A stretch of DNA of 64,000 nucleotides, taken from an uncultured Phascolarctobacterium sp. (GTDB lineage: Bacteria > Bacillota > Negativicutes > Acidaminococcales > Acidaminococcaceae). The position numbers were made by a program, and so were the translations under genes. Below are positions 16,048 through 64,000 of the stretch, piece after piece (position 1 is the stretch's first letter; the number at the start of each line of letters is the position of its first letter). The stretch spans positions 1-64,000 of the forward strand of contig CASEIL010000016.1 of NCBI GenBank assembly GCA_949288065.1, written 5' to 3'. Under the pieces are notes generated by a model that saw nothing but the letters and a program-made list of their open reading frames with translations, was not told where the DNA came from and made no database searches.

Positions 16048-16090
16048 TTTAGCGGTCTTTATTTTGTCCGCTTTATTGACGAAACGCCTT

Positions 16091-16129
16091 GCCGAAGTGC
16101 AAATTTTTTCTTTGCACTTCGGCTTTTTT
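16091..16129 (+). terminator. Second, perfect terminator in the spacer
   Basis: A 13-bp perfect stem, GCCGAAGTGCAAA (16091-16103) with TTTGCACTTCGGC (16111-16123), then TTTTTTAT. It is 45 bp after the first terminator and has no gene of its own before it. Confidence 0.88.
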
Positions 16130-16154
16130 ATACCTTAATAACGAGGCGCAAAAA

Positions 16155-16270
16155 GCCGCAAGCCGCTCCTGGTGCGGCTGGAGCGGCACTGCGGCGCCGG
16201 AACATCTCCCGCCCATAGTAAAGTCCGCTTGCGCTAGCGTGCGGACTTTTGCTTGCGGGGGGGGAGATGG
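16155..16270 (+). other. GC-rich stem-loop cluster before autotransporter 1
   Basis: Three nested or adjacent stems can be drawn. GCCGC-AA-GCCGCTCC (16155-16169) pairs with GGAGCGGC-ACT-GCGGC (16180-16195). CATCTCCCGC (16203-16212) pairs with the G-rich run ending GGAGATG (16254-16268). Inside the latter, AAAGTCCGC (16220-16228) pairs with GCGGACTTT (16241-16249). No open frame of note is present. The region could be an RNA, a terminator cluster or a remnant. Confidence 0.45.
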
Positions 16271-16281
16271 TTTGATATAAT
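16253..16281 (+). promoter_or_regulatory. Autotransporter 1 promoter
   Basis: TTGCGG (16253-16258), 17-bp G-rich spacer, TATAAT (16276-16281). The same TTGCG-R-GGGGG layout with TGATATAAT recurs before autotransporter 2 (61493-61520). Confidence 0.6.
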
Positions 16282-16299
16282 ATCAGTGGATATAGTAAA

Positions 16300-16335
16300 G
16301 CATAGTGCGGCATTAAACAAAATGCCGCACTATGC
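16300..16335 (+). other. Perfect 15-bp hairpin in the autotransporter 1 leader
   Basis: GCATAGTGCGGCATT (16300-16314) and AATGCCGCACTATGC (16321-16335) are perfect inverted copies around a 6-nt loop, between the promoter and the ribosome site. There is no T-run, so it is not a terminator. mRNA protection or control of expression is possible. Confidence 0.75.
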
Positions 16336-16359
16336 ATAGAACTGGAAGGGGTAATGTAA

Positions 16360-19300
16360 ATGAAACGGAACAAAAATTTAGAAAGGGCAGTTATTTTAGG
16401 CCTGCTGTTAAGCACGGGTGTATATGGAAGTGCTTGGGCGGAAGATATTCAGAGCGGTGGTTTATGGACTGACGCAAATAAAGAAGTAGAAGCTGGAGAT
16501 AATTTAATTATTACTACTAATAGTATAGGCGTTGGATTTAATGGAACGGTTAATGTAAAAGACGGCGATTTAACAGTTAATGCAGGTTCTAATGGCGTAG
16601 AAAGTGGCTATACTGAAACAGCCCAAGTAAATATTTTAGCTAATAATATTGTTATAAATTCTGGAGCTAATGGTATTTTTGTATCAAAAGGTGACGGCGG
16701 TATTTTTAGTTCCAATAGAGGCTATGTTGTAATTGGTGAAGAAGATGGGCGTAAAATTGACAGTTTGACTATTCTGGCTGATGGACAAGGTATTGATAAT
16801 AAAAAAGGTAAAACAGAAATTTATGGTTCAGATAATAGTGTTATAAATATACATTCAACAGGTAATGGTGGAATAAATCCTAATCAGGCTGCAATAAACA
16901 ATGAGGGTAGTGGGGATAACGGAGTAGTTATAGTTGAAGGTGGTTCTATTAAACTTACAGCTGATACAGGAAATGGTGTAACCAACAATAGTGGTACAAC
17001 AACGCTTACATCAAAAAAAGTTATTATTGATGCTGATGTAGACGGAATACGTAATACTTCTGGTAAGGTTACTTTAAATACAGCTGAGCAAAATAGTATT
17101 AGTGCTGAAAGTAATGGTATAAACAACACAAGTAGTGGAACAATTGATATTAGTACGCAAACAAATAATATTATTACAGCTAAAGAAACAGGTATTTCAG
17201 CACAAAATGGTGTTGTTAATGTAACAGCAGGCACAAAGAATATTATCAATGCAGGCATACTTACTCAAAATATTGAAGATAAAAATATTGTATATGGCAA
17301 TAGTTTAGCTGTAAAAGCTGGTAATGAATTAAAATTAGGAAGTTTTGATCTTTCAAAGTCAGGTAATGTTAATTTAATGTCTGATAATAATTATATTAGC
17401 GGCGCTGTATATGCTAATGTTAAAGATACTAATGTAACAATAAAAGGAAATAATAATACTGCCGCCAACTACGTTTATTCTGCCGCTGTTATTGATGGCG
17501 CAGGTGATTTAGCTGGTAAAAAAACGACTGAAAATGGTGACGGAACAGTTACAACCACCGGCATGGACGTTGTTTCTGCTTTGTATGCTGAAGAAGGCGC
17601 AAATATTAACCTTTCAGGCGTGAATAATGTTCAAACATATTATGGTGACCCTTCTGACGAACATACTTCTGAAAGAGCTGTTTGGGCATATAAAGGTGCA
17701 AATATAACTATCGACGGTACAACAAATATCAGCACTTACGCATACGAAGTATCACCTGAAGATAAGGATATTGCCATTGCGGCTGGTACAGCAACGAAAT
17801 TAGATAGTGGTGATTTTACGGATGAAGCTCTTAGCAAAGTAGAGATGGCTAATGTAAATTTAAACTATCAGGCAGGCAGTTCCATCACTGGTGATATTTT
17901 GGCTGCTTATGGCGGCGAAGTGAATATTACGGACGCTAACCCTGCAACTATGTCTGTTGGCAGAAGTGGTGGTGCAACTGGTATTGCTATAACCGGTAAC
18001 CTGCTTGCCGGTAACACCGGTAAACTTACTGTTGACCTTGGCAATGGCGGCAGCTTAACTGGCCGTGCCGATGATTACGGCGATGCCAGCACTGAACACA
18101 TTACGCTTTACAACCCTGCATTTAGCAGTAATATTATACAAGGCGGCGATGTTACGCTCAACATGGGTGACGACAGCAAGTGGAATGTGCAGGGCCAAAG
18201 CTGGATTACCAATGTTAATACCAATGGCAATGTAACCATAGATTTAACCAATGCACAAAATGAGTATGAAAACTACAATTCCCACGCTTTAACCATTCGC
18301 AATTTAAACGGCGATGCTAACATTAAAATGAACCTTGACGGTGAGAGAAGCCAGAGCGATATGCTGTATATCGGGCAGGGCAGCGGCGAATATAATATCG
18401 AGCTGGCAGAGCTGGTAACTGTTGAAGATATGTATGCAAATCTTGATGATAATACTAAATTCAGCGGTTTACGTTTTGCAACTGTTGGCAAAGGTTCGGA
18501 CGTTAAATTTAATGTAACTGCCAAAGGGCAGGGCTTTAATAATGTTGTTTATACTGTTGATACCGACGTTTATGGTTCTGCTGTAAGCGAACATGAAAAT
18601 GATGCCTACAACGGCGGTGATGATACTACTTTATACAAACCTGGCAATGACGCAGTGAATGATTTATTAAACGGAAGCCAAACAGAGTCCGCTGAAAGTG
18701 GTGTTGCAACCTTAGCAGCAAATGATATAATGCTGCTGGCTGATGAAGCTGAAACCGTAAATGAGAATGAAGATAATCATCTCAACTATAAACTGGTAGA
18801 TATGAAAGCTGACGGGCTTACCGACGCAGGTAAAACCATGCTGAATATGAGCCGCGCTAACTACAGCAACGCTATTTACATGGACAGACTGAACAAACGC
18901 CTTGGCGAAGCACGCTACATTAACGACGACCCCGAAGAGGACGAAGGTATGTGGGTACGCATCCGCCACGACCGCATTGGTAAGGAAGATGCCTTCCGCA
19001 GCCAGAACACCATGTATGAACTGGGCTACGACAAACGTCAGGAATGTGACAACGGCAAACGCCGCGTAGGTTTTGCGGTTGACTATATGCACGGCGATAC
19101 CGGTTACAGCGACATTGCGGGCAAGGGCGAAATTGACCGTTACGGCTTGTGGCTGTATGATACCTGGACCGGCAACAAAGGGCACTATGTAGACTATGTT
19201 GCTAAATGGGGACACCTGCAAAACGATTTTGAAGTTTACAACATGGGCGATAATGAAAAAGTAACCGGCGATTATAGCAACAATGTATTCAGCATCAGCG

Positions 19301-19746
19301 CCGAATATGGACGCAAGAAAGATATGGGCAACGACTGGTACATTGAACCGCAGGCACAGTTGCAGCTGGCGCGTGTAACCGGTGCAGACTATGTAACCAG
19401 CCAGGGCACCAAAGTAAGTGTGGACGGCATTAACAGCTTAATCGGGCGTGCAGGCTTCCGTCTTGGCAAAGACTTTGGCGAAGAAAAACAAAGCACTGTT
19501 TACTTTAAAGCAGACGTGCTGCACGAGTTCCTGGGTGACCAGACCATCCGCGCGCTGGACGGAACTACTGGCGGCGATTGGCAGAGTGTTGACTACGAAA
19601 ACAAAGGCACCTGGTATGATATTGGTATCGGCTATGCAGCAATGTTAAGCCAGAGCACCTATGCGTTTATTGATTTGGAACAATCCTTTGGCAACGATAA
19701 CGACGATACCTATCAGATTAACGCAGGCGTACGCTGGACGTTTTAA
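16360..19746 (+). CDS. Autotransporter 1 (type V secretion), outer-membrane beta-barrel
   Basis: The 1128-residue protein has a signal peptide (cleavage after Ala27, SAWA). A long Asn/Thr/Gly-rich passenger of beta-helix type follows (about 30-780), then a linker and a C-terminal autotransporter barrel (about 860-1128). The barrel ends in NAGVRWTF, the expected C-terminal aromatic signal. In the first half of the passenger, imperfect repeats of about 20-25 residues carry the theme A-x-x-x-G-I-x-N-x-S-G. That part is visibly AT-rich while the barrel has the composition of the rest of the chromosome. GAAGGGG precedes ATG 16360. The passenger is probably an adhesin exposed at the surface; its ligand is unknown. 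Confidence 0.9.
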   Translation: MKRNKNLERAVILGLLLSTGVYGSAWAEDIQSGGLWTDANKEVEAGDNLIITTNSIGVGFNGTVNVKDGDLTVNAGSNGVESGYTETAQVNILANNIVINSGANGIFVSKGDGGIFSSNRGYVVIGEEDGRKIDSLTILADGQGIDNKKGKTEIYGSDNSVINIHSTGNGGINPNQAAINNEGSGDNGVVIVEGGSIKLTADTGNGVTNNSGTTTLTSKKVIIDADVDGIRNTSGKVTLNTAEQNSISAESNGINNTSSGTIDISTQTNNIITAKETGISAQNGVVNVTAGTKNIINAGILTQNIEDKNIVYGNSLAVKAGNELKLGSFDLSKSGNVNLMSDNNYISGAVYANVKDTNVTIKGNNNTAANYVYSAAVIDGAGDLAGKKTTENGDGTVTTTGMDVVSALYAEEGANINLSGVNNVQTYYGDPSDEHTSERAVWAYKGANITIDGTTNISTYAYEVSPEDKDIAIAAGTATKLDSGDFTDEALSKVEMANVNLNYQAGSSITGDILAAYGGEVNITDANPATMSVGRSGGATGIAITGNLLAGNTGKLTVDLGNGGSLTGRADDYGDASTEHITLYNPAFSSNIIQGGDVTLNMGDDSKWNVQGQSWITNVNTNGNVTIDLTNAQNEYENYNSHALTIRNLNGDANIKMNLDGERSQSDMLYIGQGSGEYNIELAELVTVEDMYANLDDNTKFSGLRFATVGKGSDVKFNVTAKGQGFNNVVYTVDTDVYGSAVSEHENDAYNGGDDTTLYKPGNDAVNDLLNGSQTESAESGVATLAANDIMLLADEAETVNENEDNHLNYKLVDMKADGLTDAGKTMLNMSRANYSNAIYMDRLNKRLGEARYINDDPEEDEGMWVRIRHDRIGKEDAFRSQNTMYELGYDKRQECDNGKRRVGFAVDYMHGDTGYSDIAGKGEIDRYGLWLYDTWTGNKGHYVDYVAKWGHLQNDFEVYNMGDNEKVTGDYSNNVFSISAEYGRKKDMGNDWYIEPQAQLQLARVTGADYVTSQGTKVSVDGINSLIGRAGFRLGKDFGEEKQSTVYFKADVLHEFLGDQTIRALDGTTGGDWQSVDYENKGTWYDIGIGYAAMLSQSTYAFIDLEQSFGNDNDDTYQINAGVRWTF

Positions 19747-32242: not shown

Positions 32243-32302
32243 AACTGCAAAGGTGCCGCATGGGACAGCCAGGCCTGTGCGGCACAAAATGTATTTGCAG
32301 TT
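32243..32302 (+). other. Leader hairpin just before the glmS ribozyme cleavage site
   Basis: AACTGCAAA (32243-32251) pairs with TTTGCAGTT (32294-32302), and inside it GTGCCGCA (32253-32260) with TGCGGCAC (32278-32285), all perfect. The stem ends about four bases before the predicted cleavage point. Confidence 0.75.
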
Positions 32303-32305
32303 TCA

Positions 32306-32445
32306 AGCGCAAGTGCCGCCAAGCGGCAGACGAGGCGGAGGTTTATCGAATAGTCAGCGGGTGCCTCCCGGCCGGCTGCGGGCCGAAAGCAGAATGACAA
32401 AACCCCATGGCAACGCGGGGGACAAAACATCTGCGGCAGAACTGG
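32306..32445 (+). promoter_or_regulatory. glmS ribozyme (glucosamine-6-phosphate riboswitch)
   Basis: The leader contains the glmS ribozyme core in order: A|GCGC at 32306-32310 (self-cleavage between A32306 and G32307), a P2-like stem TGCCGCC-AA-GCGGCA (32314-32328), GACGAGGCGGAGGTTTATCGA (32329-32349), AGCGGGTGCCTCC whose GCCTCC pairs back to GGAGG, a GC-rich P3 (CGGCCGGCTGCGGGCCG), and a 3' domain with CCCC/GGGG stem and ACAAAAC. In the family, glucosamine-6-phosphate acts as cofactor and cleavage leads to mRNA decay, giving feedback on GlmS. Confidence 0.93.
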
Positions 32446-32471
32446 CAAATAACCTTGAGGAGGATTTTAAT

Positions 32472-34301
32472 ATGTGTGGTATTGTTGGTTACGTTGGCAA
32501 CGCTCAGGCAGCGCCTTTTTTGCTGGACGGAATGAGCAAGCTGGAATACCGCGGCTATGATTCCGCCGGTATTGCCGTTTACGAAAAGGACGGCATCCGT
32601 GTGGAAAAATGCGTTGGGCGCCTTGACGCGCTGCGCCACAAGCTGGAGGGCAAAATGCCTGTTGGCACTATGGGCATCGGCCATACGCGCTGGGCTACGC
32701 ACGGCCGCCCGAGCGACCGCAACTCGCATCCGCATACGGATGAAAGCGGCAACTTTGTTGTTGTGCATAACGGCATTATCGAAAACTATTTAATGCTGAA
32801 AGAGCAGCTGATTGCCAAAGGGCAGAAGTTTGCTTCCGACACCGATACCGAAATTGTGGCGCATCTGTTTGCCGATTTTTACGAAGGCGACATGGAAGAA
32901 GCCGTTAAAAAAGTTTTAAGAACCATCGAAGGCTCTTACAGTTTGGTATTTATGTGCAAGGCCGAGCCGGATAAGCTCATCTGCACCAAAAAGGATAACC
33001 CGCTCATCATCGGCCTGGGCGAGGGCGAAAACTTTATCGCGTCCGATATTCCGGCGATTATTGCCAAAACGCGCCGCACCTACATTATGAGCGACGGCGA
33101 AATTGCCACCGTTACCCGCGAGGGCGTATGGGTGCAGGACATTAACGGCACGCCGATTACCAAAAAAGTTTTTGAAGTTAACTGGAATGCCGAAGCTGCC
33201 GAAAAAGGCGGGTTTGAGCATTTTATGCTGAAAGAAATTTACGAGCAGCCGAAAGCTATTAAAGACACCATGCGCGGCCGCCTTGCCGAAAACGGCACGG
33301 AAATTAATTTTGCCGAGCTGGGCTGGACTGCCGAGGACTTTACCGGCATCAGCAAAATCTTTATCGTAGCGTGCGGCACTGCTTACCACGCCGGCATCGT
33401 CGGCAAATACTATCTGGAAAACCTGGCGCGCATCCCCGTTGAGGTGGATATTGCCAGCGAATTCCGCTACCGCAACCCGCTGGTTGACGCTAACTGCTTA
33501 ACCATCGTCATCAGCCAGAGCGGTGAAACCATTGATACCTTAGCAGCTTTGAAGGAAGCAAAACGCCTTGGCAGCCGCACTTTGGCGGTTACCAACGTGG
33601 TTGGCTCTTCCATCGCCCGTGAGGCGGACCAGGTTGTTTACACCTACGCCGGGCCGGAAATTGCCGTTGCCTCCACCAAGGCTTACACCACGCAGCTTTT
33701 GGTAATGCTTATGCTGGCCGTTTATGTGGGCCGCCTGCGCGGGACGCTTAGTGAAGCGAAAGCCGCAGAGCTGGCAGAAGGCCTGCACAAAGTGCCGGAA
33801 CAGCTGCACGACATGCTGGAAAACGTAGACCAGATTAAAGTGTTTGCGCGCAACTACGGCAGCTGCCTTGATGCGTTCTTCTTGGGCCGCAGCCTTGACT
33901 ACGCCGTTGCGCTGGAAGGCGCGCTGAAACTGAAGGAAATCAGCTACATTCACGCCGAAGCGTATGCCGCAGGCGAACTTAAGCATGGCACTTTGGCGCT
34001 GATTGTTGAAGGCGTGCCGGTAATTGTGCTGGCAACGCAGGAGGACGTTTACGACAAAACCGTAAGCAATTTGCAGGAAGTTAAAGCGCGCGAGGCGATG
34101 GTTATTGCCATTGCGCTGGAAGGCGACGACAGCATTGCCAAATACGCCGACCACGTTATTTACATTCCGCGTGCGGGCAAGGAACTGGCGCCGCTGCTGG
34201 CAGTTTTGCCTTTGCAGTTACTTGCGTACTATGCAGCGCTTACCCGCGGCTGCGACGTGGACAAACCGCGCAACCTTGCCAAATCTGTAACAGTAGAATA
34301 A
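32472..34301 (+). CDS. glmS: Glutamine--fructose-6-phosphate aminotransferase (isomerizing)
   Basis: GlmS makes glucosamine-6-phosphate from fructose-6-phosphate and glutamine. The start must be ATG 32472 because the catalytic Cys of the glutaminase domain follows the initiator Met (MCGIVGYVG). The frame is open further upstream only because it runs through the ribozyme. The glutaminase domain spans about 1-235. Two SIS isomerase domains follow with ACGTAYHAG, SQSGETIDTL and the C-terminal DKPRNLAKSVTVE. Length 609 is normal. TTGAGGAGG is the ribosome site. Confidence 0.98.
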   Translation: MCGIVGYVGNAQAAPFLLDGMSKLEYRGYDSAGIAVYEKDGIRVEKCVGRLDALRHKLEGKMPVGTMGIGHTRWATHGRPSDRNSHPHTDESGNFVVVHNGIIENYLMLKEQLIAKGQKFASDTDTEIVAHLFADFYEGDMEEAVKKVLRTIEGSYSLVFMCKAEPDKLICTKKDNPLIIGLGEGENFIASDIPAIIAKTRRTYIMSDGEIATVTREGVWVQDINGTPITKKVFEVNWNAEAAEKGGFEHFMLKEIYEQPKAIKDTMRGRLAENGTEINFAELGWTAEDFTGISKIFIVACGTAYHAGIVGKYYLENLARIPVEVDIASEFRYRNPLVDANCLTIVISQSGETIDTLAALKEAKRLGSRTLAVTNVVGSSIAREADQVVYTYAGPEIAVASTKAYTTQLLVMLMLAVYVGRLRGTLSEAKAAELAEGLHKVPEQLHDMLENVDQIKVFARNYGSCLDAFFLGRSLDYAVALEGALKLKEISYIHAEAYAAGELKHGTLALIVEGVPVIVLATQEDVYDKTVSNLQEVKAREAMVIAIALEGDDSIAKYADHVIYIPRAGKELAPLLAVLPLQLLAYYAALTRGCDVDKPRNLAKSVTVE

Positions 34302-54429: not shown

Positions 54430-56796
54430 ATGGCTAAGTTTGCAATACAAACATTAGAATTTGATAAAGTTAAGGAAATGCTGGCAGCCAAAACCGCCAC
54501 CAGCCTTGGGCGCGAGCGCGTAATGAATATGCGCATTGAAAGCGATTTTGCCGCCGTAAAAAAATTGCAGGAAGAAACGGCAGAAGCCCTGCGCTTACTC
54601 GACGACGGCAAGCGTTTTCCCTTCGGCGGGGCGTATAACATTCTGCCGCAGGTTAAACGAGCGCGCATCGGCAGCGTGCTGGAGCCGGAGGAGCTGATGC
54701 AGGTAGGCACAACCTGCGAGGCCTTGCGCAGCGTAAAGCAGTTTTTGGCAGGCGAGGCGGAAGCAGCGCCGCAACTGGCGGAATATGCCAATGAGCTGGA
54801 AGCATTCCCGAAAATTGAACGCTTAATTACCGGCGCTATCAGCGAGAAGGGCGAAATATTGGACAGCGCCAGCACCAAGCTGGCAGGGCTGCGCACCGGC
54901 GTGCAGGTTGCCAAAAACCGCGTGCGCGAAAAGCTGGACAGCATTTTGCACGACCCTAACAACCAGAAGTATTTTCAGGATGCTTTGGTTACCATGCGCG
55001 GCGACCGCTATGTAATACCCATTAAGCAGGAATACCGTTTTAACTTCCCTGGCGTGGTGCACGACCAGTCGGGCAGCGGCGCAACACTGTTTATTGAGCC
55101 GATGGCGGTGGTAAACCTTAACAACGATATTAAGCGTTACCTGGCGCAGGAGCAGGAAGAAATTGAGCGTATCCTGCGCAGTATATCGGGCGCAGTCGGC
55201 GCGGAAGCCGATAAAATCATCCGCGCTATGGAGCAGTTTACGGAACTTGATTTTATCGCTGCGCGCGCATATTTAGCGCAGCAGCAAAAGGCCGTGCGCC
55301 CGGTGGTGAACCTTAGCGGCGGCATAGAAATTGCCAAAGGCCGCCACCCGCTTTTGGACCCGACCAAGGTTGTGCCGCTGGATATTGAAATTGGCGGCAG
55401 GTTTAACACGCTTTTAATAACCGGCCCTAACACCGGCGGCAAAACCGTCGCCATTAAGGCGGTGGGCCTGTTTATGCTGATGGTGCAGGCAGGGCTGTTT
55501 GTACCGGCGGCCAGCGCCAAAATGCCGGTGGTAAGCGCGGTTTACGCCGATATTGGCGACGAGCAGAGCATTGAGCAGAGCTTAAGTACCTTCTCCGGCC
55601 ACATGACGAACATGGTGGATATTTTAAAGCAGGTTAAAGCGGGCGAGCTGGTTTTGATAGACGAATTGTGCGCAGGCACCGACCCGAACGAGGGCGCGGC
55701 GCTGGCCATGTCGATACTGGAACACCTGCACTGCCGCGGCGTGCTGACGATTGTTACCACGCATTACAGCGAGCTGAAAACCTTTGCTTACGGGCGCCCG
55801 GGCATGGAAAACGCCAGCGTGGAGTTTGACCCGGTAACGTTGCGCCCCACTTATCGCTTACTTATGGGCGTGCCGGGCAGCAGCAACGCGTTTAACATCA
55901 GCCGCAGGCTGGGCTTGAGCGAAGAGATTATAGAAAATGCGGGCAGCTTTTTAACGCAGGAGCATGTGCACATGGAAGACGTGCTGAAAGAGCTGGAAGG
56001 CGAGCGCCGCGAATACGAAAGCCAGAACCGCGAAATACGCAGCTTAAAGGCTGAAAGCGAGCGCATTAAAAACGAACTGGCGCAGCAGAAGAAAGAGCTG
56101 GAACACCGCAAAAACGAAATTTTGCGCAAGGCACGCGAGCAGGCGGACGAGCTTTACCGCAGCAGCCGCCGCGAAACGGAAGCCGTGTTGAAAGAGCTGC
56201 GCAAGATGAAAACAGATTTTGACGCGAAGCAGTTACAGCAGGCAGCGGAAGAGGCACGCAAAAAGCTGCAAAAAAGCTTTGCCAGCGAAACCCCTGTGCC
56301 GGAGGGCGAGCCCTTAACGGCGCAGACGGCTAAAGTTGGGCAAACGGTATTTTTAAAGAACTTAGGCAAGGATGGCACCATTACTGCCGTTAACGGCAAC
56401 GAGGTTACGGTGCAGGTGGGTATTTTAAAAACCACTGTTAAGGCTAAGGACTGCATTGCCATGCGCGGCAAGGCCAAAAGCAACGCTGCGCAGGAAAGCT
56501 TCGGCAAAAAACGCAAGGGCTTTGCGCACCAGTTTTTTGTGCAAAAAAGTATCGGCGCGCGCACCGAGGTTGACGTGCGCGGCATGACGATGGACGAAGC
56601 CATTCCCGCTGTCGATAAGGCTATGGACGACGCGCTTCTGGCAGGGCTTACCAGCCTGCGCATCATTCACGGCAAAGGCACGGGCGCGCTTAAAGCCGGG
56701 CTTACGGCGTACCTATCCACGCACAGGGCAGTAAAATCGCTTGCCGAAGCGCCCTTAAACGAGGGCGGCAGCGGCGCTACGATTATTAATTTTTAG
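54430..56796 (+). CDS. mutS2: Endonuclease MutS2
   Basis: The 788-residue protein has the MutS core with Walker A GPNTGGKTV (about 336-344) and Walker B LVLIDELCAGTDP. A long coiled-coil region (EDVLKELEGERREYESQNREIRSLKAE...) and a C-terminal Smr nuclease domain (EVDVRGMTMDEAIPAVDKA, RIIHGKGTGALK) follow. MutS2 suppresses homologous recombination and in Bacillus also rescues collided ribosomes. It lacks the MutS mismatch-recognition domain as expected. AAGGAGAA precedes ATG 54430. Confidence 0.97.
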   Translation: MAKFAIQTLEFDKVKEMLAAKTATSLGRERVMNMRIESDFAAVKKLQEETAEALRLLDDGKRFPFGGAYNILPQVKRARIGSVLEPEELMQVGTTCEALRSVKQFLAGEAEAAPQLAEYANELEAFPKIERLITGAISEKGEILDSASTKLAGLRTGVQVAKNRVREKLDSILHDPNNQKYFQDALVTMRGDRYVIPIKQEYRFNFPGVVHDQSGSGATLFIEPMAVVNLNNDIKRYLAQEQEEIERILRSISGAVGAEADKIIRAMEQFTELDFIAARAYLAQQQKAVRPVVNLSGGIEIAKGRHPLLDPTKVVPLDIEIGGRFNTLLITGPNTGGKTVAIKAVGLFMLMVQAGLFVPAASAKMPVVSAVYADIGDEQSIEQSLSTFSGHMTNMVDILKQVKAGELVLIDELCAGTDPNEGAALAMSILEHLHCRGVLTIVTTHYSELKTFAYGRPGMENASVEFDPVTLRPTYRLLMGVPGSSNAFNISRRLGLSEEIIENAGSFLTQEHVHMEDVLKELEGERREYESQNREIRSLKAESERIKNELAQQKKELEHRKNEILRKAREQADELYRSSRRETEAVLKELRKMKTDFDAKQLQQAAEEARKKLQKSFASETPVPEGEPLTAQTAKVGQTVFLKNLGKDGTITAVNGNEVTVQVGILKTTVKAKDCIAMRGKAKSNAAQESFGKKRKGFAHQFFVQKSIGARTEVDVRGMTMDEAIPAVDKAMDDALLAGLTSLRIIHGKGTGALKAGLTAYLSTHRAVKSLAEAPLNEGGSGATIINF

Positions 56797-61357: not shown

Positions 61358-61492
61358 AGCCTTGGCAGAGTATAAAGAATTAAATTTTGTTGTTTTGCTT
61401 TGTAAATAGAACCGTAACAGGCGGGGGCAAGCCCGGCAGGGAAAAAGTTTCCCAAGACCAGTAAAAGTAAGACACACGCAAACCTGAATGTC

Positions 61493-61552
61493 TTGCGAGG
61501 GGGTAAAGATATGATATAATTTTAATATAAATTAACCGGCATAAGGCCGGTT
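61493..61552 (+). promoter_or_regulatory. Autotransporter 2 promoter and leader hairpin
   Basis: TTGCGA (61493-61498), 16 bp with GGGGG, TATAAT (61515-61520). In the leader AACCGGC (61534-61540) pairs with GCCGGTT (61546-61552). Promoter boxes, G-run and leader hairpin repeat the layout of autotransporter 1. Confidence 0.6.
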
Positions 61553-61572
61553 GAGGGAAAGAGGTTGTGTAT

Positions 61573-64000
61573 ATGAAACGGAAAAATTTGGAAAAGGCGA
61601 TAGTATTGAGCTTAATATTAGGCAGTTTTAGTGTGCCTGTATGGGCAGGAGATGTTATATTAGAGCAGAAAAATTTACATTTTACAGGTGGATATTCAAA
61701 AGATTATGATGGGAATTTAACTATATTAAATACTGTTAATGGTCATAATTATAATTCTGATGATTTTAGAAGAAATGAAGGTACTGGCTCTGTAAGTGGA
61801 GAATTAGGTTCAGGCATAGTGTTGTGGAACACTGGTGCTGGTTTAAATGTTGCAAAAGATTTATTTATAAGCATTAGGCCTGATGATTGGCAAGGTGATA
61901 AAATTTCTGAAAGAAGACAAGGTATTCAAATGCAATATGGAGCAACAATGGGCGTAGGTGGCAATACTACGATCATTGTAGATAACTATTTTCATTCTGA
62001 ATCTAATGATAATTTAGGATTGCGTGAAGAGGTTAAACCAAACACTCAACAAGGTATTAATATTTATGGTGATAATACGGACTTAAATTTAATAGGCAAT
62101 TTGGATATTACAATGCTTAATGGTAACCGTTCAATGGGCATTTTAGCTTATGATAATGCTAATTTGAATGTTGGCGGTAATACTACAATAACAGTTAAGA
62201 ATGCTCCATATTATGCTTATGGTATTTCTAATGTTGAAAATAACCAGAATTATTCTTTAAATAGTCCGGATAAAACGGCGAATTTACATTTTCAAGGTGA
62301 TTTGACTATTGAAACAGAAGGTGGTAATAATTCTATTGGCATCAATTTAAAAGAAAGCAATAATAATTATAATGCAAAAGCGATTACTGTTGATGGACAT
62401 CTTGATATTACAGCAAAAGGTGCAACTGCATATAATTATAAAACTGATTTACAAACTTTTCCTAATAGTGTTTCTAACTATGGTGTATATCTGTATCAGG
62501 TTACTGGTTCTACATTTAATACGGCTGATATAAAAACAATTTCTAAAGGTGAAGATGTAGAATCCATAGGTTCTTATGTTTATTGGCATTCTGATTCCGT
62601 TTTTAACGGCGATGTTAAGTATACTACGCAGGCAGATGATAATGCGGTTGCTATATCTGCGCTGGCAAGAGCTGGTAGCGATATTGATTATAAAAGAGGA
62701 TTAGTTGCTGATGGCAAGATAGTATTGAATGCTGTTGGCAATACTTGGGGAGAAGGTTCTAAAATAAAAGTAAATTCTTCAGAAAATGTTGATTCTATTG
62801 TGCAGCTTAATGGCAATATTGTTGTTGGTAAAACAGATGCAGCAATGGTAAGGGGTGAAACTTATGATACTGTTGTAGATACCGATACAACAAAAAATAT
62901 AATTACTGCTAATTTATTAAATGCAAATTCGCATTTTACTGGCACTAATGAATATGGCAATGAAGGTGGATATGATAAATCGCAAAGTGAAATTGATTTA
63001 ACATTTAAAAATGGTGCCAAGTGGAATATGACTGACAGTACCAATGTTACTGACTTAGTATTAGCTGATAGCGCAGCTTTAAATATGAATTATAATGCTG
63101 GTGATACCTTCCGTACATTAAATGCTAAAACAATGAATGGTGAAGGCGGGATTGTAAATATGAATATTGACGCTAGCAAAAATACTGCTAGCGACCGTTT
63201 GTACATTGAAGATACGCATAACGGAATCCACTACATTACTTTAAACAATGTTGGCGCAGATACTGAAGGTGCCAAGGGAACTGTGCTTGTAAGCGTCGGT
63301 ACAGAAAACGGTGAGTTTAAGGCTAATGATAGCGAAGGCGCGCTGTATTGGAACCGTTATGATCTTGTTCAGCAAGATAGCTTAGAAGAAGGATATACCA
63401 AAGATTGGGTTTTAAACGAAATTGAGCTTGTAGATGACAAGACTACTACTGCTGTCGGTGCTATTATGGGCGCAAATGCTTTGAATTATTATACTTGGCG
63501 TGCTGAAAATGATCAGCTTATGCGCCGTATGGGCGAACTTCGCAATAATGGCGAAGATGAACAGGGTGCTTGGTTCCGTGTACATGGAAATAAAATCAGC
63601 CGTGACGATAATGTAGCCTTTGAAAACCAGTATACTAGCTATGAGTTTGGCTATGACCAAGTAACAAAACAAACAGAAGATATAACCCGTTACACCGGCG
63701 CTGCCTTAAGCTATACGGACGGCGACAGCAGCTATGAATGTGGCAGCGGCGAAAACCACAGCAAAGCAATAGCGTTTTATAATACCGATATTTATAAGAG
63801 CGGACACTATCTGGATTTGGTATTTAAGTATGCCAATATGGATAATGATTTTAATGTTTATGATACCAACAACAATAAAATCAGTGGAGAATATAAAAAT
63901 ACCGGCATAAGCGTAAGCGCAGAATATGGACGCAAAAACGATATGCAAAACGGTTGGTATATTGAACCGCAGGCTCAGTTAACACTTGGGTATTTTGGCG
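61573..64000 (+). CDS. Autotransporter 2, 3' end outside window
   Basis: The frame is open from ATG 61573 (GAGG upstream) to the window edge, 809 codons. A signal peptide resembles that of autotransporter 1 (MKRKNLEKAIVLSL.., cleavage after VWA, residue 25). The AT-rich, Asn/Thr/Gly-rich passenger of beta-helix type carries repeated G-N-T-T-I-T/I-V and L-x-I-T-x-x-G themes. From about residue 660 the autotransporter barrel begins (GAWFRVHGNKISRDDN..) and shows SAEYGRKNDMQNGWYIEPQAQL, almost the same as in autotransporter 1. The last part of the barrel is missing because the window ends. Probably a surface adhesin. Confidence 0.9.
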   Translation, partial: MKRKNLEKAIVLSLILGSFSVPVWAGDVILEQKNLHFTGGYSKDYDGNLTILNTVNGHNYNSDDFRRNEGTGSVSGELGSGIVLWNTGAGLNVAKDLFISIRPDDWQGDKISERRQGIQMQYGATMGVGGNTTIIVDNYFHSESNDNLGLREEVKPNTQQGINIYGDNTDLNLIGNLDITMLNGNRSMGILAYDNANLNVGGNTTITVKNAPYYAYGISNVENNQNYSLNSPDKTANLHFQGDLTIETEGGNNSIGINLKESNNNYNAKAITVDGHLDITAKGATAYNYKTDLQTFPNSVSNYGVYLYQVTGSTFNTADIKTISKGEDVESIGSYVYWHSDSVFNGDVKYTTQADDNAVAISALARAGSDIDYKRGLVADGKIVLNAVGNTWGEGSKIKVNSSENVDSIVQLNGNIVVGKTDAAMVRGETYDTVVDTDTTKNIITANLLNANSHFTGTNEYGNEGGYDKSQSEIDLTFKNGAKWNMTDSTNVTDLVLADSAALNMNYNAGDTFRTLNAKTMNGEGGIVNMNIDASKNTASDRLYIEDTHNGIHYITLNNVGADTEGAKGTVLVSVGTENGEFKANDSEGALYWNRYDLVQQDSLEEGYTKDWVLNEIELVDDKTTTAVGAIMGANALNYYTWRAENDQLMRRMGELRNNGEDEQGAWFRVHGNKISRDDNVAFENQYTSYEFGYDQVTKQTEDITRYTGAALSYTDGDSSYECGSGENHSKAIAFYNTDIYKSGHYLDLVFKYANMDNDFNVYDTNNNKISGEYKNTGISVSAEYGRKNDMQNGWYIEPQAQLTLGYFG

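Follow-up and report, generated by a model that had tools for sequence, protein, structure and literature searches.

Promoters with a homopolymeric run in the spacer have been described for a small number of genes in Neisseria and Treponema. In porA of Neisseria meningitidis, a poly-G run is situated in the promoter spacer of an outer-membrane protein gene and its length alters the spacer (PMC7864442, PMC3899988), and in tp0126 of Treponema pallidum, a G-run occupies the spacer of an OmpW-like gene, the transcription being best at a spacer of 17 bp, which is given as the optimum for both tp0126 and porA (PMC7864442). Concerning fetA of Neisseria, a homopolymer between the -10 and -35 sets the level of transcription (PMC5320596). 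A different arrangement is represented by the invertons of gut bacteria, which have inverted repeats near promoters, a survey giving a median of 11 per Negativicutes-like genome (PMC11892184). It should be pointed out that all four sources are cited here from excerpts.

The present study concerns a stretch of 64,000 nucleotides (designated hereafter as the window) from an uncultured Phascolarctobacterium sp., in which two autotransporter genes are preceded by promoter-like sequences. These share with the first three systems the homopolymeric run located between the -35 and the -10, and with the invertons the inverted repeats nearby. The reading favoured here—albeit with a modest lean—is that of a sigma-A-type promoter, the slippable G-run of which would tune the expression of surface genes. 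Among the literature matches listed, all of them open papers, none described a G-run promoter or a slippage switch in Negativicutes, and a term search of two papers on Veillonella autotransporters gave no hit for "phase variation" or "phase variable".

Two G-run promoters in the window

Both promoters are located on the plus strand. In promoter 1 (copy 1), the -35-like hexamer TTGCGG (16253-16258), agreeing with the TTG/TTT plus G-run consensus common to 85 representative promoters, is followed by a spacer run of G (16257-16264) and the extended -10 TGATATAAT (16273-16281, with TATAAT at 16276-16281), which gives the layout TTGC-GGGGGGGG-AGATGGTT-TGATATAAT over 16253-16281 with 8 G and a spacer of 17. 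In promoter 2 (copy 2), the corresponding elements are the hexamer TTGCGA (61493-61498), the interrupted tract GAGGGGG (61497-61503) and the same extended -10 (61512-61520, with TATAAT at 61515-61520), i.e. TTGC-GAGGGGG-TAAAGATA-TGATATAAT over 61493-61520 with a spacer of 16. The initial annotation, which had described TTGCG plus a purine followed by a G-run in both promoters and spacers of 17 and 16 bp, agrees with this (TTGCGG with 8 G in copy 1 and TTGCGA with GAGGGGG in copy 2). Its "eight or nine G" in copy 1 narrows to exactly eight, and the five G it reported in copy 2 are indeed present as GGGGG but are better understood as a tract of 7 G interrupted by a single A, because the 14 other promoters resembling copy 2, coming from six genomes of the same genus, have an uninterrupted run of 7 G (12 promoters) or 8 G (two promoters). 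The tract of copy 2 has thus probably arisen from 7 G by one G to A change, as judged from these relatives, and, being interrupted, is expected to slip little.

Behind promoter 1 there are a leader hairpin with a perfect 15-bp stem (16300-16335; fold, z -7.0), the ribosome-binding site GGAAGGGG (16344-16351) and a gene for an autotransporter of 1128 aa (16360-19746; PF03797, E 1.2e-42). Behind promoter 2, a weak hairpin of 9 pairs including one G-U (61532-61554; fold, z -2.6) precedes a gene for an autotransporter of 926 aa (61573-64000, the frame extending beyond the window as far as contig position 64350; PF03797, E 2.5e-31). Both proteins are of type Va, possessing the C-terminal PF03797 beta-domain above the curated cut-off. 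The two leader hairpins exist, but they are not a part of a common architecture; among the leaders behind promoters of this type a z below -2 was reached in 13 of 84, and in 2 of 13 within the window's genus, so that the hairpin was rejected as a shared module.

The pairing of a G-run with TATAAT in the window is beyond chance: with both strands taken together there are 72 TATAAT sites, and at least five consecutive G occur in the preceding 24 bases in two of them, these two being promoters 1 and 2. Rfam, applied to the window alone at the gathering threshold, gave no match at the promoters and found glmS and six tRNAs elsewhere; the glmS riboswitch/ribozyme match (32295-32444) is positioned at the start of a 682-aa frame (32253-34301).

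Occurrence of the promoter type and the genes behind it

The assembly containing the window has 1.83 Mb in 44 contigs and is 88% complete. The pattern TTGCGNGGGGN{5,18}TATAAT has 6 matches in it, the reversed pattern having none. There are 23 distinct runs of at least 7 G in the genome, 11 of which come after a TTGC or TTTACT -35; these 11 have a -10-like hexamer behind them in ten cases and a contig end in one. The genome has seven autotransporter genes, plus one weak short match. The G-run promoter is found directly before the two window genes, the gene on contig C2 and the first of the two genes on contig C9, the second C9 gene sitting behind the first and seeming to be the second in an operon. 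The gene on contig C13 begins at the contig end, which has 20 bases in common with the end of contig C22, itself carrying the G-run promoter, and the gene on contig C4 has no G-run promoter within the 170 bases before it. One gene for an SLH protein (contig C1) has the G-run promoter, too. Concerning the region upstream of promoter 1, the stretch of about 16062-16263 (188-202 bp, with nested palindromes and ending in the G-run) recurs twice elsewhere in the genome with 94-96% identity. These copies are located at the start of contig C22 and at the end of contig C27, the latter stopping exactly in the G-run.

Since promoter regions within the genome are 91-96% alike over 124-202 bp, the resemblance between promoters 1 and 2 could reflect nothing more than common ancestry of duplicated autotransporter genes, devoid of regulatory meaning; this is, however, very improbable, because the same anatomy occurs with unrelated flanks and in several families before genes for SLH proteins, sugar transferases, HTH proteins and ShlB transporters. 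The pattern GGGGGGGN{3,12}TGNTATAAT, i.e. 7 G plus the extended -10 TGnTATAAT, gave 220 matches (2 with the reversed pattern), runs longer than 7 G being counted more than once through overlapping starts and no -35 being required. The matches come from 60 of 380 Negativicutes genomes, the other 320 having none, and the positive genomes cover the window's own family (21), a second family designated f15 (31), family f10 (two) and six other families (one each). With the tighter pattern GTCTTGCGGGGGGN{6,14}TATAAT, a search over 84,980 species yielded 54 stretches, of which 51 belong to records bearing Negativicutes names, some of them type strains—Phascolarctobacterium, Selenomonas, Schwartzia, Anaerovibrio, Veillonella and their kin—and the remaining three (Saccharibacteria, Pirellulales and Lentimicrobium) look like chance. 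Several promoters of this type occur in P. faecium DSM 14760. The promoter type is far from universal in the window's family, since the TTGC form with at least 6 G was found in 15 of its 59 genomes. Viral contigs were rejected as carriers, with two matches, neither having the extended -10.

In total, 156 sites were gathered, mostly from loci picked by patterns demanding a G-run, so that short runs are under-sampled among them; six sites were filtered out and then seven unrelated or chance ones were removed (L039, L086, L088, L122, L160, L161 and L182). The 85 representatives, whose upstream regions are less than 72% identical to each other, define the consensus AAAT-GTCTTGC, followed by the G-run, ACA at -10 to -8 and GTG at -4 to -2 relative to TATAAT. 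Their runs consist of 7 G in 48 cases, 8 G in 24, 9 G in nine, 10 G in three and 6 G in one, and the extended -10 has its T in 95% and its G in 81%. The spacer, measurable at 140 sites, is 16 in 100, 17 in 17, 15 in nine, 18 in seven and 19 in seven of them, the last group including promoters in which TATTAT three bases earlier would make a spacer of 16. The length of the G-run and that of the rest of the spacer compensate each other (r -0.41).

The genes downstream code for autotransporters, YadA-like adhesins, ShlB transporters, SLH proteins, sugar transferases and small HTH regulators. In 80 downstream frames of the 85 representatives (five shorter than 50 aa were left out), Pfam recognised HTH_3 in 11, ShlB in eight, the YadA head in six, SLH in six, sugar transferase in three, MBOAT in two and the autotransporter beta-domain in two, the C-terminal domains being under-counted as many frames are cut by locus ends. 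According to a home-made rule, 75 of the 116 downstream genes begin with a stretch resembling a signal peptide, compared with 77 of 217 neighbours (P 5e-7), the neighbours being drawn from 51 of the 54 tighter-pattern loci and not from whole genomes. The products are thus surface-exposed with exceptions, such as the HTH regulators and other non-surface genes, and the initial annotation, ascribing the promoter to both autotransporters, was right for these two but too narrow, unrelated surface genes in several families having it as well. In several families of gut and rumen bacteria, a single anatomy stands before adhesins, parts of type V secretion, SLH proteins and polysaccharide genes, and it can serve there as a sequence predictor of surface operons.

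As to the HTH proteins, four genera of the window's family (g2, g10, g16 and g17) have up to 12 matches per genome to XRE-type proteins of about 110 aa, several of the genes being directly behind the promoter. As a general regulator these proteins were rejected: strong matches go with these four genera, but the proteins are not required, since the genera g1, g5 and g6 have the promoters and one weak match or none.

Length variation of the G-run

The length of the run was compared in 26 disjoint pairs of promoters with at least 85% upstream identity. It differs by 1-2 G in 11 pairs and is unchanged in 15, and the upstream DNA of the same 26 pairs shows four indels in 1820 columns, its A/T runs of at least 5 differing in 1 of 20; by arithmetic, this amounts to indels being about 25 times as frequent per base in the G-run as in the upstream DNA. 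The rest of the spacer has the same length in 9 of the 11 differing pairs, so the spacer itself changes (e.g. 18/16, 17/16 and 16/15). One differing pair, with spacers of 17 and 16, is formed by copy 1 and the related promoter that this genome has on contig C22. In two genomes of family f15, 1109 aligned columns with 95.1% identity contain two single-base gaps, one of which is in the G-run. Some of the differences in G-length could be assembly errors.

Promoters similar to copy 1 in other species of the genus have 7, 8 or 9 G, corresponding to spacers of 16, 17 and 18; the genomes G003, G004, G005 and G001 have 7, 9, 7 and 8 G, respectively. The first three share their upstream DNA as far as the promoter itself (1471 bp at 90% for G004 and G005), G001 and G005 have 737 bp in common further upstream of it, and window copy 1 shares with these promoters only the last ~190 bp. 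Near-identical promoters with 7 and 8 G also occur within one genome, namely L171/L219 in G035 and L172/L226 in G030; L219 and L226 have the visible start of an SLH protein behind them, each of the four loci is near a contig end, and the pairs may be paralogues or assembly variants. In this material of one genome per species, the run is hypervariable relative to its flanks between species and between paralogues.

A search by DNA likeness, with no threshold on run length, gave 24 promoters, the window copies included: 18 with 7 G, four with 8 G, one with 9 G and the interrupted copy 2. It comprised nine matches of copy 1 type, one of them truncated at a contig end 7 G into the run, and 19 of copy 2 type, from which four leader-only ones (L288, L291, L292 and L296) were left out. 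At least 7 uninterrupted G are therefore present in 23 of the 24, it being noted that the G-run itself contributes to likeness matches. Among the sequences compared, the G-run is the part of the promoter that varies most in length, but it is maintained at 7 G or more.

This genome has a full-length mutS1 frame, and mutS1 was above the cut-off in 18 of the 21 genomes searched, so that the loss of mismatch repair was rejected as the cause of slippage. The window also contains a MutS-like frame (54430-56796), probably MutS2, with the match at contig position 55159-56082.

The variability of the run against its flanks in the close pairs supports, at the level of the DNA sequence, a porA-like, slip-tunable promoter. 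In such a scheme, both window genes would be served by one vegetative promoter of the sigma-A type, spread over several Negativicutes families and consisting of a putative weak -35 (TTGC, TTGT, TTGA or TTTAC), 7-10 G at once behind it, ACA-like bases and TGnTATAAT, usually with a spacer of 16. Replication slippage at the G-run would occasionally add or remove a G, shifting the spacer to 15, 17 or 18 and altering the way RNA polymerase bridges its two contacts, so that the expression levels of adhesins, outer-membrane proteins and surface polysaccharide would be inherited and yet able to revert. Copy 1, with 8 G and a spacer of 17, would then be one step from the usual 16, and copy 2, with its broken tract and a spacer of 16, would be a locked version. 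We infer that the promoter is active, that it slips in living populations and that expression responds. By analogy, the spacer being usually 16 and its optimum 17 in tp0126 and porA, the gain of one G might raise expression.

A fast switch is disfavoured, because 7 G dominates, which is short for rapid slippage, 15 of the 26 pairs are unchanged and mutS1 is full-length, by which slippage should be suppressed; a mere slip site is disfavoured as well, since at least 7 G are kept. The run length may rather be a slow dial of expression. The slip-site idea of the initial annotation is supported by sequence comparison, 11 of the 26 close pairs having runs of unequal length, but the strong preference for 7 G, the full-length mutS and the interrupted tract of copy 2 limit it. 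On the whole, what that annotation observed has been confirmed in part and its interpretation is supported in part.

The G-run might also be a fixed working part of the promoter, its sequence or DNA shape being read by RNA polymerase or a putative regulator and its changes in length being tolerated noise. This is a serious possibility, although on balance a doubtful one: the uninterrupted runs in 23 of 24 promoters, the placement immediately behind -35 elements of several types, the constant distance of ACA and GTG from the -10, the spacer of mostly 16 and the presence of mutS are all consistent with it, whereas the 25-fold excess of indels and the broken tract of copy 2 are not, and second-order selection for slippage would keep long runs too. 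Both accounts may be true, a working element being also mutable.

The inverted repeat and the described systems

At many sites, the -35 coincides with the right arm of an inverted repeat of the form CAAGAC-N31-GTCTTG. Promoter 2 has CAAGAC (61453-61458) and GTCTTG (61490-61495) separated by 31 nt (61453-61495 as a whole, plus strand), the right arm overlapping the -35. Promoter 1 has nested repeats, upstream of and including the promoter (16203-16269, plus strand), with the outer arms CATCTCCC (16203-16210) and GGGAGATG (16262-16269), the latter including the end of the G-run, and the inner arms AAAGTCCGC (16220-16228) and GCGGACTTT (16241-16249).

Perfect arms of at least 7 bases were found in 64 of 143 sites (66 of 150 before the removal of the seven loci) against 2.7% in shuffles, with a loop of 28-36 nt in 51 of the 64, and the arm pairs covary between sites (AACAAGAC/GTCTTGTT, AGCAAGAC/GTCTTGCT, GGCAAGTT/AACTTGCC and GACAAGCT/AGCTTGTC). 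For arms ending at the G-run, a cis match of at least 7/8 was seen in 24 of 85, arms swapped between sites giving a mean of 12.5 and a maximum of 21 in 2000 trials. These figures, together with the invertons counted in Negativicutes-like genomes (PMC11892184, in the excerpt mentioned above), would fit a switch residing in the repeat instead of the G-run, the repeat bounding an invertible segment or being the operator of a dimeric regulator. Such a switch is nevertheless improbable. With arms placed 7 bases further upstream, the mean match is not above that of swapped arms (P 0.20), although 8 of 85 reach 7/8, the mean after swapping being 1.5. An inversion of the DNA enclosed by the arms was rejected, since the 68 loops compared in assemblies, at 75% or more, yielded 61 pairs in direct and 0 in inverted orientation, i.e. 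no loop in both orientations. Moreover, the -10 lies outside the repeat, and many sites from Selenomonadaceae records lack it, the repeat therefore not being needed for the promoter type. A dimeric regulator is a guess as to the role of the repeat, and a regulator acting in addition to the G-run is possible.

A more ambitious synthesis, rather speculative at present, would see the 7-G run as a third core element, together with ACA-nnn-GTG in front of TATAAT and an often cis-paired repeat across the -35, marking in many Negativicutes a surface regulon with a putative factor and run length as its dial. Returning to the slippable sigma-A-type promoter, if the run is a dial, the commensal surface would vary heritably and, in our view, strain comparisons may discard this variation as homopolymer noise.

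Compared with the described systems, porA is one gene with reported effects on expression, whereas here many unrelated surface genes have a common extended -10 and usually a spacer of 16. The same holds for tp0126, a single gene with a reported expression effect, in contrast to a putative promoter type repeated before many genes. The run of fetA differs in being poly-C, of 10-14 in the strains given (PMC5320596, as excerpted), and in belonging to a single gene. Unlike the gut-bacterial invertons, finally, the promoters described here show no inverted orientation and their repeat does not enclose the whole promoter.
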